Source: Chitinophaga pinensis (GTDB lineage: Bacteria; Bacteroidota; Bacteroidia; SXHM01). Taken from it: a stretch of 36,075 bases of DNA. Under the pieces are notes generated by a model. That model made no database searches. It saw nothing but the letters and a program-made list of their open reading frames with translations, and was not told the origin of the DNA. A program made the translations under genes and the position numbers. Within the stretch, counting starts at the first letter, position 1; every line of letters starts with the position of its first letter. Location of the stretch: the NCBI GenBank assembly GCA_945861685.1, contig CAMAVO010000009.1, positions 1 through 36,075 of the forward strand, given 5' to 3'. Shown here piece after piece: positions 4,828-33,323 of this stretch.

Positions 4828-4927
4828 TGTATCCTTAACACATACATGATGTATTCCTTAAACAACCATGATGTTTATCTTACACCAACACTATGTATCT
4901 GTTACACTATAAATATTGTTTATTCTC
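4796..4927. repeat. Degenerate 22-bp tandem array, about 6 units, consensus ACATACATGATGTATCCTTAC(A)C
   Basis: Units: ACATACATCATGTATGTCTTAC / GCTATCATCCTGTATCCTTAAC / ACATACATGATGTATTCCTTAA / ACAACCATGATGTTTATCTTAC / ACCAACACTATGTATCTGTTAC / ACTATAAATATTGTTTATTCTC; 22-bp spacing for the first five. Confidence 0.75.
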
Positions 4928-26372: not shown

Positions 26373-29300
26373 ATGAGGGGACTTTTACGCGCCTTATTAT
26401 TTCTGTTATTACCTTTTGCTGCCTCTGCGCAGTTCACCAACTCTTGGATTAATTACAGCCAGCCTTATTACAAATTTCCGATTTTACAGGATGGTGTTTA
26501 CCGCATCACCTATGATGCCCTGGTAAACAGCGGGATTCCTGCTGCTTCAATTGATCCTGATAATATACAAATGTTCGGTCGCGGACAGGAACTTGCTATT
26601 TGGGTGCAAGGCGGTCAGGATGGCAGTTTAGATTCGGCTGATTACATTGAGTTTCATGCACAGCGCAATGATGGTTATTTTGACCGCGAGGTTTATGATG
26701 TACCCGAAAACCACGGAAATCCTTACTACAGTTTGTTTAATGATACTGCATTTTATTTTTTCTCGTGGGGTAATACAGCAGGTTTAAGATTTCAGAATAT
26801 TACTGATACCAATATTACGGGCATTACTCCAGCTGATTATTTTTTTAAAGAAAATATAAGATACTTTACTGGAGGAGGGTATTATACAGGTGAGACGTAT
26901 CCGATTGTTAATGGAGCCACAAGTCCACAATATACAGCGGGAGAGGGATATTTTAGCGGAACATTTACAGTAGGCGGTTCAACTACTGCCACAATAAGCA
27001 CACCGTCTCTTTATTCATCTGGTCCCGTTGCCACCTTTAGAGCAAACGTGATAGGTTTATCAAACGGAAGCGCAATCCCGAATCATCATACAAGGCTTAG
27101 TATAGGCTCTTTTTCAACTGATGCTATTTACAATGGGTTTCATGTTCAAAATTTTAATGTTCAAGTCCCTTCGTCCAATCTTTCCAGCGGGTCAACTGTT
27201 CCTTTGTTTTCATCACTATCCACATCAGGGCCATCCAACAATGCTATTGCTTATGTTGCAATTAAATATCCGCATACCATGACTGTAAGCGGAACTATGT
27301 ATGCTAAAATGTTTATTCCGGATAATACTAATGCGAGTAAAACGTTGCTTAACCTAACCGGTTTTGATTTACAAAGTTCAACAGGAAGATTATATGATCT
27401 TAGCAATTACAAACGTATTGCATTGTTTACAAACGGCAGTGCAACTGCTGCACTTGTTCCCAATGGTGGTAATGATAAAGAATGTTACCTTACCAGTGAT
27501 GCTCAGATTGCAATTAATTCCATTCCTTTATTAAAGCCTTGCGGAACAAATCAGGATGGTTATTTTCTTGACATCACCAATTACCTAGTTCCGCCCAACT
27601 TCTATATTATAACGCACAAAAGTCTGTGGCAAGAAGGACAGAATTATAAGATTTACCGTAACCAAAGCGGTTATAATGCCGAGTTGTTTGATATTGATGA
27701 AATCTATGACCAGTTTGGGCATGGTATTCCTAAGAACCCTATGTCAATCAGACATTTTGCTAATTATGCTTATCAGGAATGGGGGCCAGATACCATGCAG
27801 CATTTATTTCTTTACGGAAAGGCTATTTACCCTTATGCCTGCCGCAATAATACAACAAACTATTCAGCCTGTCTTGTTCCTACATTCGGTTTTCCTTCAT
27901 GTGATATGCTCCTTACCGCAGGCTTGGGTGGAAATTTGTATGAGCCAGCTATTCCAGTAGGAAGGGTGGCAGCCCGCACTCCCGATCAGGCTCAGGATTA
28001 TTTAGATAAGGTAGTAGAATATGAAGGCGCAGAGCCTGATGAATGGAAAAAGCGCGTGCTGCACTTTTGCGGTGGTGCGGATGGTGCGGAAAATGAACTA
28101 CTCTGCTATTATGTAGATGTATTTGAAGAAATCATTGAAGACTCGCTCTATGGTGCATGGGTTCAGAAATTTTCAAAAACTAATTCTCAGCCTTTTCAAA
28201 TCACACAATCTGATTCTATTCGTGAGCTGATTGAAGACGGTGTTTCACTGATGACATTTTTCGGGCACGGTTCGGGTGGTGGTTTTGATGTGAACACTGA
28301 TGATGTGAATACCTATAACAACGAAGGAAGATACCCGCTGATTTTTGGTAACTCCTGTCTTTCAGGTGATATACACAATGTACCCGGTGCAAGTTTGAGC
28401 ATGAGCGAACCATGGGTGTTGGCTCAGGATCGCGGGGCAATCGGTTTTCTTGCTTCAGTCGGTAATGGTGTTACCGGTGCGTTGGCGCGCTATGGAGACA
28501 GTCTGTATGCTAATCTTGCTTTGAAGCGTTACCACCACACCATAGGAAATGTTATGAAAAATACGGTTGCTGATGTGCAGGTCCAAGGAAATTACCTCTA
28601 TAACTTTACCGTTATGCAGAATAATCTTCATGGTGACCCTGGAATACGAATAAACACGCATCCTTTGCCTGACCTTGCTATTTCTGAGCCCAATGTTTAT
28701 TTCACCAATCCTGACGGCAACGGCACTCCAATTACCGTTACAACAGAATTGGATTCATTTGATATAAATATCATCGTTAATAATCTGGGAAGAACCTATG
28801 GCGATACACTTACGCTTTATGTAAGACGGACCTACCCGGGCGGTATTGATGGTGGAAGCATTGCCAAAACATTTGCGCCCATTTTCTTTAAAGACACATT
28901 GACGGTGCGCTTTGCAACCAATCAGATTTTTGGTATTGGAATAAATCAACTCTACGTTCATATAGATGACGGACCTTTCCCGGTGATTGATGAATTATCG
29001 GAGCAGAATAACTTTATCAATAACATGAATTTTGTGGTACAGTCGCCCGACATTATTCCGGTTTATCCCTACAAGTTTGCGATTATGGGCGAGCAAGGCA
29101 TTACGCTGAAAGCCTCAACGGGCAACCCTTTTGCTCCGGTGCGCACGTATCGTTTGCAGTTAGATACCACCGACCGTTTCAATAGCCCGCTGATGCAGCA
29201 AACCACTATTACCCAAAGCGGGGGAGTGGTAAACTGGACGCCTACCCTGCTTGCCAATATGCCCGATAGTACGGTGTATTTCTGGCGCGCTTCGGTTGAC

Positions 29301-31502
29301 TCTACCGTGTTTAAATGGCGCGAAAGTTCGTTCCAGTATATTACGGATAAATACGGGTGGGGGCAGGCGCACTTCTTCCAGTTTAAGCCGGACACTGCAA
29401 ATTATGAAGGGGATAACTACCAGTTTATAAAACACAACCGCCCTTTCCGCAGATTTGATTTCATTAATACTCCTAAAACTATCTCGCTCCACAATAAAGG
29501 TTGGATTACAACCTTAACAGAAGCCTACACTGTTTTATATAAAATAGATTCTGAAGTTGAAGATTACCTTGCTTGCGGCAATGGTGCTAATATTCTAAGA
29601 CCACAGGTTATTTCAGTAGTTGTGGATGCCAATACGCTCGAGCCTTGGGGCTCGCCCGGCACTGACCCTGTTACCGGTCAATTAGTAAATCAAGGAAATG
29701 TATTTGGTCAGATGAATGCTAACGGAAGTTGCGGAAGAACAAGGTCAGAGTTATTTTTCTTCTGGAGACAAGACAACGGAGGCAATGACATGACCGATTT
29801 GAGTAACTTCCTTGACAACACAGTTCCCGATAGTAATTACATTATGCTCTATAGCTGGATACCCGCCAATCCAAATTGCTGCGGTCCTTCTCCCGGAACA
29901 TTTGCTCCATGGCCGGCAGATATTCTTAACACATTTCATAACTTAGGATTTGATGCTATAGATACTATCCCATTAAATATGCCCTGGGTTTTCTTTTGTA
30001 AGAAGGGTGATTTGGCAACAGCTATCGCGCAGTCAGGACTTGCTCAGACCGATATGATAGACTTCAGTGCTCAAATGACCGGCACCTACAACAAAGGCAC
30101 CATCACCACCCCGCTCATCGGCCCATCTGCAGGCTGGAACTGGATGTATTGGGATCGCCATCCGAGTGAGATACCTTCGGATGATACCATGAATGTTTCC
30201 ATTATTGGTGTGCGCCAGAATGGTACGGAAGAAGAGGTGCTTTCGGATTATCTTATTTACCCTTCCACCAACCCCGACAGTCTTTCGCTGACAGGCATTA
30301 TTGATGACCTTGAGTTTCCTTACATGAAATTGCAGGCCTTTACACAGGATGATACCACCCGCACTCCTGTGCAGTTAGAGCGCTGGCAGATTATTTACGA
30401 CCAGGTTCCTGAGGCGGCATTAAATCCTAACATCGGGTATTACTTCCCGAGTTCGGTGGTGGAGCAGTTTCAGGATGTTGTGTTTATGACCGCCATTGAA
30501 AACATCAGCGACTATGATATGGACAGCTTGCTGGTAAAATACTGGGTGCAGAAACAGGACAACAGTTCGGTTATTGTTCCTTATCCGCGCCAGGCTCCTT
30601 TATTGATTGACGGGGTGTTGATTGATACCATTCACGTTCCTACTGCCGACTTTGTGGGCAATAACAAGTTGTGGGTAGAGGTTAACCCGTATGATTCATT
30701 GGGCAATCCCGACCAGCTGGAGCAATACCATTTCAATAACATCGGCTATGTTCAGTTCAGTACCAGTGGCGACCGCATTAATCCTATTCTGGATGTTACC
30801 TTTGATGGTATCCACATTCTGGATGGCGATATTGTTTCGGCCAAGCCACAAATAATAATGAACCTTGATGACGAGAACCAATACCTGTTAATGAATGAGG
30901 TTACCGATACTTCTAAAATCAGGGTGTATGTTGTAAAACCCAATACTTCGGTGCCTGAACGCATTTATTTCGATGGCTTTAATACCATGCAGTTTTTCCC
31001 GGCATCGGCCCCCGAAAATAAATGCAGGATAGAGTTTCCGGGCGAGTTTACCATCGATGGCGTTTATAAACTCATTGTTCAGGGAAGCGATAAGAGCAAT
31101 AACGCTTCGGGCTCGTTTGAATACACTATTTCGTTTGAGGTTATTAACCGCAGTACCATTACCGAGGTGCTGAATTATCCTAACCCGTTCAGTACTTCAA
31201 CGCGCTTTGTGTTTGTGCTCACTGGCTCGGTTATTCCTGATTATTTCAAGATACAGATTATGACCATCACGGGTAAAGTGGTGCGCGAAATTACTACCGA
31301 TGAACTGGGGCCTATTAACATCGGGCGCAACATAACCCAATATGCCTGGAACGGTAAAGACGAGTATGGCGACCAGCTTGCCAACGGGGTGTATCTCTAC
31401 ACCGTTACTGCCTACATAGGCGGGCAGGATATTGAGCACCGCAACTCCGGTGCCGATAAATATATCCGCAAGAACTTCGGGAAGATGTTTTTGATGAGGT
31501 AG
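26373..31502 (+). CDS. Putative T9SS sortase PorU2-like, peptidase C25 (gingipain) family, 1709 aa
   Basis: 'VSLMTFFGHGSGGGF' (catalytic His), 'FGNSCLSGDIHN' (catalytic Cys), C-terminal 'LNYPNPFSTSTRFVF...YAWNGKDEYGDQLANGVYLYTVTA' FlgD-like domain. Confidence 0.9.
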   Translation: MRGLLRALLFLLLPFAASAQFTNSWINYSQPYYKFPILQDGVYRITYDALVNSGIPAASIDPDNIQMFGRGQELAIWVQGGQDGSLDSADYIEFHAQRNDGYFDREVYDVPENHGNPYYSLFNDTAFYFFSWGNTAGLRFQNITDTNITGITPADYFFKENIRYFTGGGYYTGETYPIVNGATSPQYTAGEGYFSGTFTVGGSTTATISTPSLYSSGPVATFRANVIGLSNGSAIPNHHTRLSIGSFSTDAIYNGFHVQNFNVQVPSSNLSSGSTVPLFSSLSTSGPSNNAIAYVAIKYPHTMTVSGTMYAKMFIPDNTNASKTLLNLTGFDLQSSTGRLYDLSNYKRIALFTNGSATAALVPNGGNDKECYLTSDAQIAINSIPLLKPCGTNQDGYFLDITNYLVPPNFYIITHKSLWQEGQNYKIYRNQSGYNAELFDIDEIYDQFGHGIPKNPMSIRHFANYAYQEWGPDTMQHLFLYGKAIYPYACRNNTTNYSACLVPTFGFPSCDMLLTAGLGGNLYEPAIPVGRVAARTPDQAQDYLDKVVEYEGAEPDEWKKRVLHFCGGADGAENELLCYYVDVFEEIIEDSLYGAWVQKFSKTNSQPFQITQSDSIRELIEDGVSLMTFFGHGSGGGFDVNTDDVNTYNNEGRYPLIFGNSCLSGDIHNVPGASLSMSEPWVLAQDRGAIGFLASVGNGVTGALARYGDSLYANLALKRYHHTIGNVMKNTVADVQVQGNYLYNFTVMQNNLHGDPGIRINTHPLPDLAISEPNVYFTNPDGNGTPITVTTELDSFDINIIVNNLGRTYGDTLTLYVRRTYPGGIDGGSIAKTFAPIFFKDTLTVRFATNQIFGIGINQLYVHIDDGPFPVIDELSEQNNFINNMNFVVQSPDIIPVYPYKFAIMGEQGITLKASTGNPFAPVRTYRLQLDTTDRFNSPLMQQTTITQSGGVVNWTPTLLANMPDSTVYFWRASVDSTVFKWRESSFQYITDKYGWGQAHFFQFKPDTANYEGDNYQFIKHNRPFRRFDFINTPKTISLHNKGWITTLTEAYTVLYKIDSEVEDYLACGNGANILRPQVISVVVDANTLEPWGSPGTDPVTGQLVNQGNVFGQMNANGSCGRTRSELFFFWRQDNGGNDMTDLSNFLDNTVPDSNYIMLYSWIPANPNCCGPSPGTFAPWPADILNTFHNLGFDAIDTIPLNMPWVFFCKKGDLATAIAQSGLAQTDMIDFSAQMTGTYNKGTITTPLIGPSAGWNWMYWDRHPSEIPSDDTMNVSIIGVRQNGTEEEVLSDYLIYPSTNPDSLSLTGIIDDLEFPYMKLQAFTQDDTTRTPVQLERWQIIYDQVPEAALNPNIGYYFPSSVVEQFQDVVFMTAIENISDYDMDSLLVKYWVQKQDNSSVIVPYPRQAPLLIDGVLIDTIHVPTADFVGNNKLWVEVNPYDSLGNPDQLEQYHFNNIGYVQFSTSGDRINPILDVTFDGIHILDGDIVSAKPQIIMNLDDENQYLLMNEVTDTSKIRVYVVKPNTSVPERIYFDGFNTMQFFPASAPENKCRIEFPGEFTIDGVYKLIVQGSDKSNNASGSFEYTISFEVINRSTITEVLNYPNPFSTSTRFVFVLTGSVIPDYFKIQIMTITGKVVREITTDELGPINIGRNITQYAWNGKDEYGDQLANGVYLYTVTAYIGGQDIEHRNSGADKYIRKNFGKMFLMR

Positions 31503-31519
31503 TCAACCACTCTAAAATA

Positions 31520-31876
31520 TCATTCTTGCATCACGTACTGTGGTGATAACACCACGGTTTCTCGTGATAACATCGCGCTCTGTGGTGATTGCATTACGCT
31601 CTGTGGTGATTGTATCATCTACTGTGGTGATAACACCACGGTTTCTGGTGATAACATCGCGCTTTGCGGTGATTGCATCACACTCTGTGGTGATAACACC
31701 ACGGTTTCTGGTGATAACATCGCGCTCTGCGGTGATAACACCACGGTTTCTGGTGATAACATCGCGCTCTGTGGTGATTGAATCACACTATGTGGTGATT
31801 GTATCACGTACTGTTGTGATAACACCACGGTTTCTGGTAATAACATCGCGCTCTCTGGTGATAGCATCAGAGCACT
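31520..31876. repeat. 17-unit, 21-bp strictly phased tandem array of short dyads
   Basis: Unit types TGGTGATAACACCACGGTTTC (A), TGGTGATAACATCGCGCTCTG (B), TGGTGATTGNATCACNCTCTG (C); all units exactly 21 bp. Confidence 0.92.
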
Positions 31877-31907
31877 CCGTACATATCTTTCAGGTGGTAA
31901 AAAAGTT

Positions 31908-33323
31908 CTACAGCAGTTTCCTTATCGCAAACTTGATAAAGTTCACGTTGCCGGTGGTGTAGGGGGCGTACTTCTGCTTCACATCAAACATAAACGGGCG
32001 TTTAAGAGCCGGTTTGGTGTGCGAGAAGGTATCGAAACCGAACTTGCCGTTGTAGGCACCTGTTCCGCTGTTGCCCACCCCGCCAAAAGGCAGTCCCGGG
32101 TGACCGGCATGCAGCATTACATCATTTACAAGCACCGCTCCCGAAGAAGTTTCGTTAATAATGCGCTCACTGAAAGCTTTGCTGTTGCTGAACACATAAA
32201 GAGCCAATGGTTTTTCGCCTTTATTGATAAAAGCAATAGCCTGATCAAGGGTATCGTATTCCATCAAGGGCACAATAGGGCCGAAGATTTCTTCCTGCAT
32301 CACTTTCTGGTCGGGCGTAACATTATCAATAATGGTAGGCGCAATGTATTTCTGCGAAGCATCGGTTTGTCCGCCTGCCACCACATCACCGTCAATGAGT
32401 TTTTTCACGCGCTCAAAATGTCTGTCGCTGATGATGCGCGGAAAGTCAGGGCTTGCCTTAGGGTCGGCACCATAAAACTCGGTAATGGTTTTCTTCATTT
32501 TTTCAATGAAGGCTGGCTTTATCTTTTTATTGATGAGAATGTAATCGGGAGCAATGCAGGTTTGTCCGGCATTTACAAATTTACCCCATGCAATACGCTT
32601 AACGGTAACATCCAAATCGGTGTCGGCATCTACTATGCAAGGGCTTTTTCCACCCAACTCCAAGGTAACGGGAGTAAGGTGTTTGGCAGCCGCCTGATAA
32701 ATGATGCGGCCTATTTCGGTTCCGCCTGTAAAAAGGATGTAATCAAAACGCTCTTTAATCAGTTCGGTAGTTTCGGCAGCACCGCCCTCAATCACTTTCA
32801 TGTAGCGCGGGTCAAAGGTTTCGCTCACCATTTTATTAAGTACCGCAGAAGTAGCAGAAGAAAGTTCAGACGGTTTAATAATCATGGTGTTTCCTGCGCT
32901 TATAGCACCAATCAGCGGACCCACCGTGTTCTTAAAAGGGTAGTTCCACGGACCGATAATCAACGAAACCCCATAAGGCTCTTTATACAACCAACTGCTG
33001 CCCGGAAGAAAGAACAGAGGTGTAGAAACCTTCTCGGGTTTCATCCATTTGCTCAGGCGTTTCAGGTTGTAATCAATGTCAGCAATGCTGATACCTATTT
33101 CGGTAGCAAAGGCCTCCATCTCTGATTTGTTGAGGTCGCTTTTCAGCGCAGCCAGTAACTCCTTCTCATACTTAATAATAGCATTCTTTAGCTTGGTTAG
33201 TTGCTCCCTGCGGAAGCTTTCGCTTTTGGTAACGCCCGTATTAAAAAACTCGCGTTGTTTGCTTACAATTATTTTCATGGCTGAGGTTGTTTTTACTTCG
33301 GGTTCGGCTGTTAGGGTTGACAT
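31908..33323 (-). CDS. Aldehyde dehydrogenase family protein
   Basis: 'LIIGPWNYPFKNTVGPLIGAISAGNTMIIKPSELS', 'FTGGTEIGRIIYQAAAKHLTPVTLELGGKSPCIVD', 'NAGQTCIAPDYIL', 'LPFGGVGNSGTGAYNGKFGFDTFSHTK'. Confidence 0.97.
   Translation of the reverse strand: MSTLTAEPEVKTTSAMKIIVSKQREFFNTGVTKSESFRREQLTKLKNAIIKYEKELLAALKSDLNKSEMEAFATEIGISIADIDYNLKRLSKWMKPEKVSTPLFFLPGSSWLYKEPYGVSLIIGPWNYPFKNTVGPLIGAISAGNTMIIKPSELSSATSAVLNKMVSETFDPRYMKVIEGGAAETTELIKERFDYILFTGGTEIGRIIYQAAAKHLTPVTLELGGKSPCIVDADTDLDVTVKRIAWGKFVNAGQTCIAPDYILINKKIKPAFIEKMKKTITEFYGADPKASPDFPRIISDRHFERVKKLIDGDVVAGGQTDASQKYIAPTIIDNVTPDQKVMQEEIFGPIVPLMEYDTLDQAIAFINKGEKPLALYVFSNSKAFSERIINETSSGAVLVNDVMLHAGHPGLPFGGVGNSGTGAYNGKFGFDTFSHTKPALKRPFMFDVKQKYAPYTTGNVNFIKFAIRKLL

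Follow-up and report, generated by a model that had tools for sequence, protein, structure and literature searches.

Tandem repeats in bacteria are generally taken for neutral products of slippage, and a repeat that holds its unit length exactly while its bases diverge raises the question of what is being held constant. Such an array lies in the window analyzed here, a 36,075-bp stretch of DNA that forms an entire contig (G000:C9) of a 3.04-Mb Bacteroidia MAG. We compared the array with its counterparts in congeneric genomes and with other arrays across the genus, and we weighed what could have fixed its step. All of the evidence comes from sequence comparison of MAGs.

A tandem array between two convergent genes

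The array occupies positions 31518–31874, with no strand assigned to it or to its units, and division into 21-bp steps starting at 31518 yields 17 units in register, of which the first and last are degenerate, in about four copies of an 84-bp higher-order unit. It is flanked by a porU2-like C25 peptidase gene on the + strand (26373–31502; 1709 aa; Pfam Peptidase_C25, with a weak FlgD_ig match) and a convergent aldehyde dehydrogenase gene (ALDH) on the − strand (31908–33323; Pfam Aldedh, E = 1.8e-89). The first well-formed unit (31539) begins 36 bp after the porU2 TAG stop, and the array ends 33 bp from the ALDH stop. Three unit types are arranged in a loose 84-bp higher order: an A-type unit, TGTGGTGATAACACCACGGTT (31539–31559; near copies at 31623, 31686, 31728 and 31812), built on the dyad GTGGTG-ATAA-CACCAC; a C-type unit, TGCGGTGATTGCATCACACTC (31665–31685; variants at 31581, 31602, 31770 and 31791), built on GTGAT-TGC-ATCAC; and a third type with a weak dyad, TCTGGTGATAACATCGCGCTC (31707–31727; near copies at 31560, 31644, 31749 and 31833).

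An earlier sequence-only reading had described about 17 exact, indel-free 21-bp units at this position, and two measures bear it out. TRF reported a period of 21 at 31529–31869 (16.2 copies, score 281) together with an 84-bp higher-order form at 31539–31869 with 0% indels, and autocorrelation reached 0.68–0.77 at lags of 21, 42, 63, 84 and 105, with every other lag between 1 and 109 at 0.45 or below. The same reading held that most units carry a dyad. This stands for the window, where the A- and C-type dyads are genuine, the third type has hardly any dyad, and the excess over column-permuted arrays is significant but modest (p = 0.023); it fails for the wider class of arrays described below, in which the 42-bp arrays have strong dyads and many of the 21-bp arrays have weak ones or none. 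At 4828–4874 of the window, between ORFs, there is also a short tandem repeat of 22 bp (2.1 copies).

Searching its own genome (G000) with the window array returned only the array itself, besides chance-level matches, and a single relative was found at another site in G001 and G006. Nothing similar was found in the phage and plasmid collections searched, and an origin from either was rejected.

We found six congeneric genomes (G001–G006). A comparison of unit number among relatives, which the sequence-only reading had proposed, showed that, in congeners carrying a homologous array, its length differs by multiples of 21 bp alone: the array is one unit shorter in G004 (−21 bp) and ten units shorter in G001 and G006 (−210 bp). 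Since congeners show the array at the same flanks, with lengths that differ by exactly these amounts, an assembly slip is very unlikely to be its source. Two further species carry unrelated sequence in the same gap. The porU2-ALDH gap of G003 holds an array of alternating 21-bp units with the dyads ATCCGC..GCGGAT and TGAA..TTCA (42/84 bp), and that of G005 holds a 41-bp array built on TTCCGGAA. Where the porU2 locus was read in relatives of the class from other genera, this gap contained no 21n array.

A common step in unrelated sequences

The genus, one of lake bacteria, was surveyed by running TRF on 2.01 Mb from G000, G003 and G006, about a sixth of these three MAGs, with crude longest-ORF gene calls and a method that misses weak arrays. 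Outside ORFs, 56 arrays were found; the best period was a multiple of 21 in 42 of them and 41, 82 (two arrays) or 106 in four more. For the 48 non-ORF arrays that reach 80 bp in length, the basic period was 21 bp in 21 arrays, 42 in 17, 41 in three, 22 in one and another value in six, so that 42 of the 48 have a basic period of 21, 42, 41 or 22 bp. Arrays inside ORFs in the same census have periods scattered over 12–54 bp. Seventeen of the 41 arrays that were analyzed further are self-similar mainly at 42 bp and weakly (at most 0.50) at 21 bp. Periods of three or five helical turns (31–32 and 52–53 bp) were not seen among the arrays, which argues that the 21-bp module as such acts as the ruler, and not the face of the helix alone.

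Array-to-array comparison within the genus revealed mostly unrelated sequences. The scan of the genome and its relatives for arrays of similar period thus recovered a genus-wide class with 21- and 42-bp periods, and the proposal that a fixed period with diverging bases reflects selection on spacing is strengthened by these dozens of unrelated arrays, as it is by a porU2-ALDH locus that holds its period in species with unrelated sequence. Some arrays are missing in close relatives. In the first 1.2 Mb, arrays were commoner between convergent genes and rarer between divergent genes than expected from general intergenic regions, and this skew, including the divergent depletion, is weaker in the 2.0-Mb catalogue. 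Coding repeats of other kinds occur in these genomes: in G003 (L072, 10831–15556), two neighbouring large genes carry collagen-like Gly-X-Y repeats with a 42-bp non-coding array between them, and in G006 (L112, 7459–16443) repeats of 240 bp make up some 9 kb of coding sequence.

Several known systems share part of this description. Plasmid iterons are tandem direct repeats of about 17–22 bp, spaced two helical turns apart and bound by Rep, with a conserved core and a variable remainder. The arrays described here resemble them in their direct repeats at about two-turn spacing and in their combination of conserved core and variable remainder, but they are scattered over the chromosome at many sites, differ in sequence from site to site, are often dyadic with 42-bp units, and have no replication initiator gene beside them; the window array adjoins the porU2-like peptidase and ALDH genes. 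Bacterial minisatellites and VNTRs are likewise tandem and intergenic, with copy number that varies between relatives as it does here; they differ in that these arrays show a 21/42-bp period lock across unrelated sequences, a core/spacer structure and a tie to a gene family. In eukaryotic centromeric satellites, unit length is constrained, and the sequence evolves fast and is homogenized in concert. By analogy, the present arrays may share the constrained length and the concerted, fast-changing sequence, although they are short, bacterial and spread over many gene-flanking loci, with helical turns and not a nucleosome as the unit.

REP and BIME elements are short extragenic palindromes, sometimes clustered, and REPs have one sequence genome-wide. 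The dyadic arrays are likewise made of short extragenic palindromes; unlike REPs, each has its own core and a fixed step, and no palindrome is common to the genome. TAACTGA direct repeats of Beggiatoaceae form many intergenic sets in one genome, as these arrays do, and a regulatory role is proposed for them; one heptamer is common to all of those sets, whereas these arrays are free in sequence and fixed in length (PMC4679880). CRISPR comes to mind for the 42-bp arrays, which alternate a conserved dyad core with more variable spacers at a fixed step, but the spacers of those examined are interrelated and homologous between species. The sequence-only reading had set CRISPR aside for the window array, correctly, as the array has no spacers, and no cas genes were seen among the window genes examined. 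We found no description of length-locked intergenic arrays in Bacteroidota in the open-access papers searched.

Array-linked genes and concerted turnover of cores

Many arrays of the class lie 5′ of genes, and the association is concentrated in one group of proteins. P0001 (324 aa) and P0002 (404 aa), both of them array-linked, belong to one superfamily. This superfamily (L185–L203, L239–L261) is uncharacterized and multi-copy, its members are about 300–420 aa long, and most have an array 5′ of the gene. In the sampled contigs, where related loci are not independent, an array lies within 700 bp 5′ of the gene in 12 of 16 superfamily members and in 33 of 1368 other genes (P = 5e-16). Family A, one branch of the superfamily, is present in 19 of 295 Bacteroidia genomes and in seven of 156 genera. 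Outside the genus, upstream DNA could be read at 17 family-A loci, and 13 of these have an array 5′ of the gene, of 42 bp or, in two cases, 41 bp and with private sequence, compared with any 21n array at two of 35 control loci. At one of those two control loci (L063), the array lies 66 bp 5′ of a small-protein gene whose product resembles the array-linked family C by eye; a structure prediction for this protein (mean pLDDT 36.6) was discarded. Families A and C co-occur across genomes (seven shared of 13 and 17; P = 9e-7, uncorrected for phylogeny).

Family A and B proteins matched no known family except for a weak CarboxypepD_reg domain, the P0001 branch gave no convincing match in Pfam, NCBIfam or PADLOC, family A matched neither solved structures nor PADLOC, and no relatives of A and B were found in viral contigs. 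At family-B loci, the array has a conserved block upstream of it and the start codon on its other side. A 36-bp block, TTTGACATACTCCCCCTCGACCAATAAACATTTGTCC (L198 at about 1005; orthologues of the L091 locus), is conserved between G003 and G006 upstream of family-B arrays, and the arrays beside it are unlike. A common promoter block next to arrays was found at orthologous family-B loci only, plus one look-alike.

Within arrays, conserved columns cluster into cores beyond what permuted columns give (p < 0.05 in 15 of 34 arrays; combined P = 6e-13). Dyads exceed column-permuted controls overall (P = 1e-8), chiefly through the 42-bp arrays, which show a preference for a second dyad at a distance of 21 bp (mean rank 0.69 over 17 arrays). 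In the column-permutation test, no clear dyad emerges from several of the 21-bp arrays, and outside the genus dyads reach p < 0.05 in four of 13 arrays.

The family-A locus of G000 and G006 has six cores in each species, 42 bp apart. Within one array, identity is 82–83% among cores and 43–48% among spacers. Between the species, cores are 32% identical, and spacers are 66% identical unit by unit and 46% identical between non-corresponding units; the six spacer stretches include the array flank, which is the best conserved of them and lifts the spacer mean. As the cores differ between species yet are uniform within each array, and the spacers correspond, the cores at this locus have been replaced in concert and the spacers kept. 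The FtsW locus and one family-B locus also have unlike arrays in related species.

What could fix the step

We read the window array as a probable member of a helically phased, genus-wide class that may serve as a phased multi-site DNA platform, with iteron-like geometry and locus-specific cores, a reading whose chances we rate as evenly balanced. The 21-bp unit would correspond to two turns of B-DNA and the 42-bp unit to two different two-turn halves, so that equivalent cores would face one side of the helix at fixed intervals. A putative DNA-binding protein or filament most likely fills the sites cooperatively, as Rep does on iterons. Geometry would then be constrained, and each array's core would be free to change, provided that it changed in concert, because the units within one array must match one another. 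An array 5′ of an A- or B-family gene probably acts in cis on that gene, and the window copy, which has the 3′ end of a convergent gene on either side, would be an unattached member of the class. Such a platform fits the period, the cores and the concerted turnover best, and the suggestion of stacked sites on one DNA face is still the best fit to the data. Nearly every array has its own core, which makes a single sequence-specific factor a poor fit. The absence of some arrays from close relatives and the lack of universal dyads outside the genus count against the platform.

Its main rival is a mutational ruler, in which a lineage-specific replication, repair or recombination process makes and homogenizes 21- or 42-bp tandem duplications and the arrays are near neutral. 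This would account for the common step of independent, sequence-unrelated arrays, for copy number that, at the window locus, shifts by nothing but whole units, and for gain or loss between close species; template switching at palindromes could also homogenize dyad cores and spare spacers. It leaves unexplained the arrays 5′ of most superfamily members (12/16) and of most family-A loci outside the genus (13/17), the loci that keep an array despite replacement of its sequence, and the cores of non-dyadic arrays, and we consider it unlikely, though with an appreciable chance of being right. An ordinary neutral minisatellite of unconstrained period would also be tandem, intergenic and variable in copy number, but the period histogram and the refilling of the same locus by unrelated arrays of the same step disfavour it so strongly that we give it very little credence.

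Tests of a structured transcript (G·U asymmetry), of static curvature (wedge model) and of coding (frame counts) each came out unsupportive. Transcribed arrays could form strings of hairpins with a part in the regulation or protection of mRNAs, as the sequence-only reading had partly anticipated; dyads are numerous, the window array gives better folds than shuffled sequences on either strand (z = −5.95 and −3.93), and the family-B arrays lie ahead of the start codon. Such an RNA element is nonetheless improbable: G·T versus A·C mismatches within dyads are not skewed in favour of the gene strand, a folding excess on two strands is expected of any dyad array, an RNA would have no need of a 21-nt step, dyads are unclear in several of the 21-bp arrays, and no Rfam family reached threshold (best score 22.8 against a gathering score of 143.5, in the range of chance matches). 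A general role as terminator, also suggested earlier, is unlikely, as the FtsW locus already has a terminator-like hairpin and T-run before its array and many arrays lie 5′ of genes. Sequence-independent mechanics, whereby any helix-phased repeat would produce curvature or a plectoneme tip, would explain a period of whole helical turns for any sequence and the enrichment between convergent and depletion between divergent genes in the first 1.2 Mb. We find it distinctly improbable, given that the divergent depletion weakens in the larger catalogue and that a wedge model gave bends of 29.7 degrees per 63 bp for real and 31.2 for column-permuted arrays, with the window array unusually straight at 11.9 degrees. 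Finally, translation of the array could explain a period that is a multiple of three. A + strand frame is open over 31540–31962, and the array continues in the porU2 frame past the TAG stop (31500–31850), where read-through would yield SGDNIALCGDNTTV repeats. Against this, one in-frame TGA breaks the porU2-frame reading, 41-bp arrays occur, non-ORF arrays lack other multiples of three between 18 and 33, and frames stay open no more often than they do in permuted arrays (1.79 versus 1.54), with none open in 10 of 34 arrays; a coding repeat is therefore highly improbable.

Whichever process is responsible, a unit length that stays fixed across unrelated arrays whose letters are free makes these arrays a natural experiment, replicated dozens of times in each genome, in which constraint on geometry can be told apart from constraint on sequence. 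Should the protein platform be true, it would be a new phased-binding system in Bacteroidia, attached to an unnamed gene family; if the mutational ruler is true, it would be a new copying process with a 21-bp step.

We put forward, tentatively and at somewhat less than an even chance, that the arrays form the DNA component of a hitherto undescribed system in Bacteroidia, one of multi-copy proteins, each paired with a length-fixed, sequence-free array just 5′ of its gene, in which concerted turnover of the cores would give every locus a private address and window-type arrays would be unattached. The paired proteins are predicted from their sequences to have a helical N-terminus and a beta-sandwich C-terminus. 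In further array-linked proteins, an apparently helical part is followed by fn3 or CarboxypepD_reg domains.
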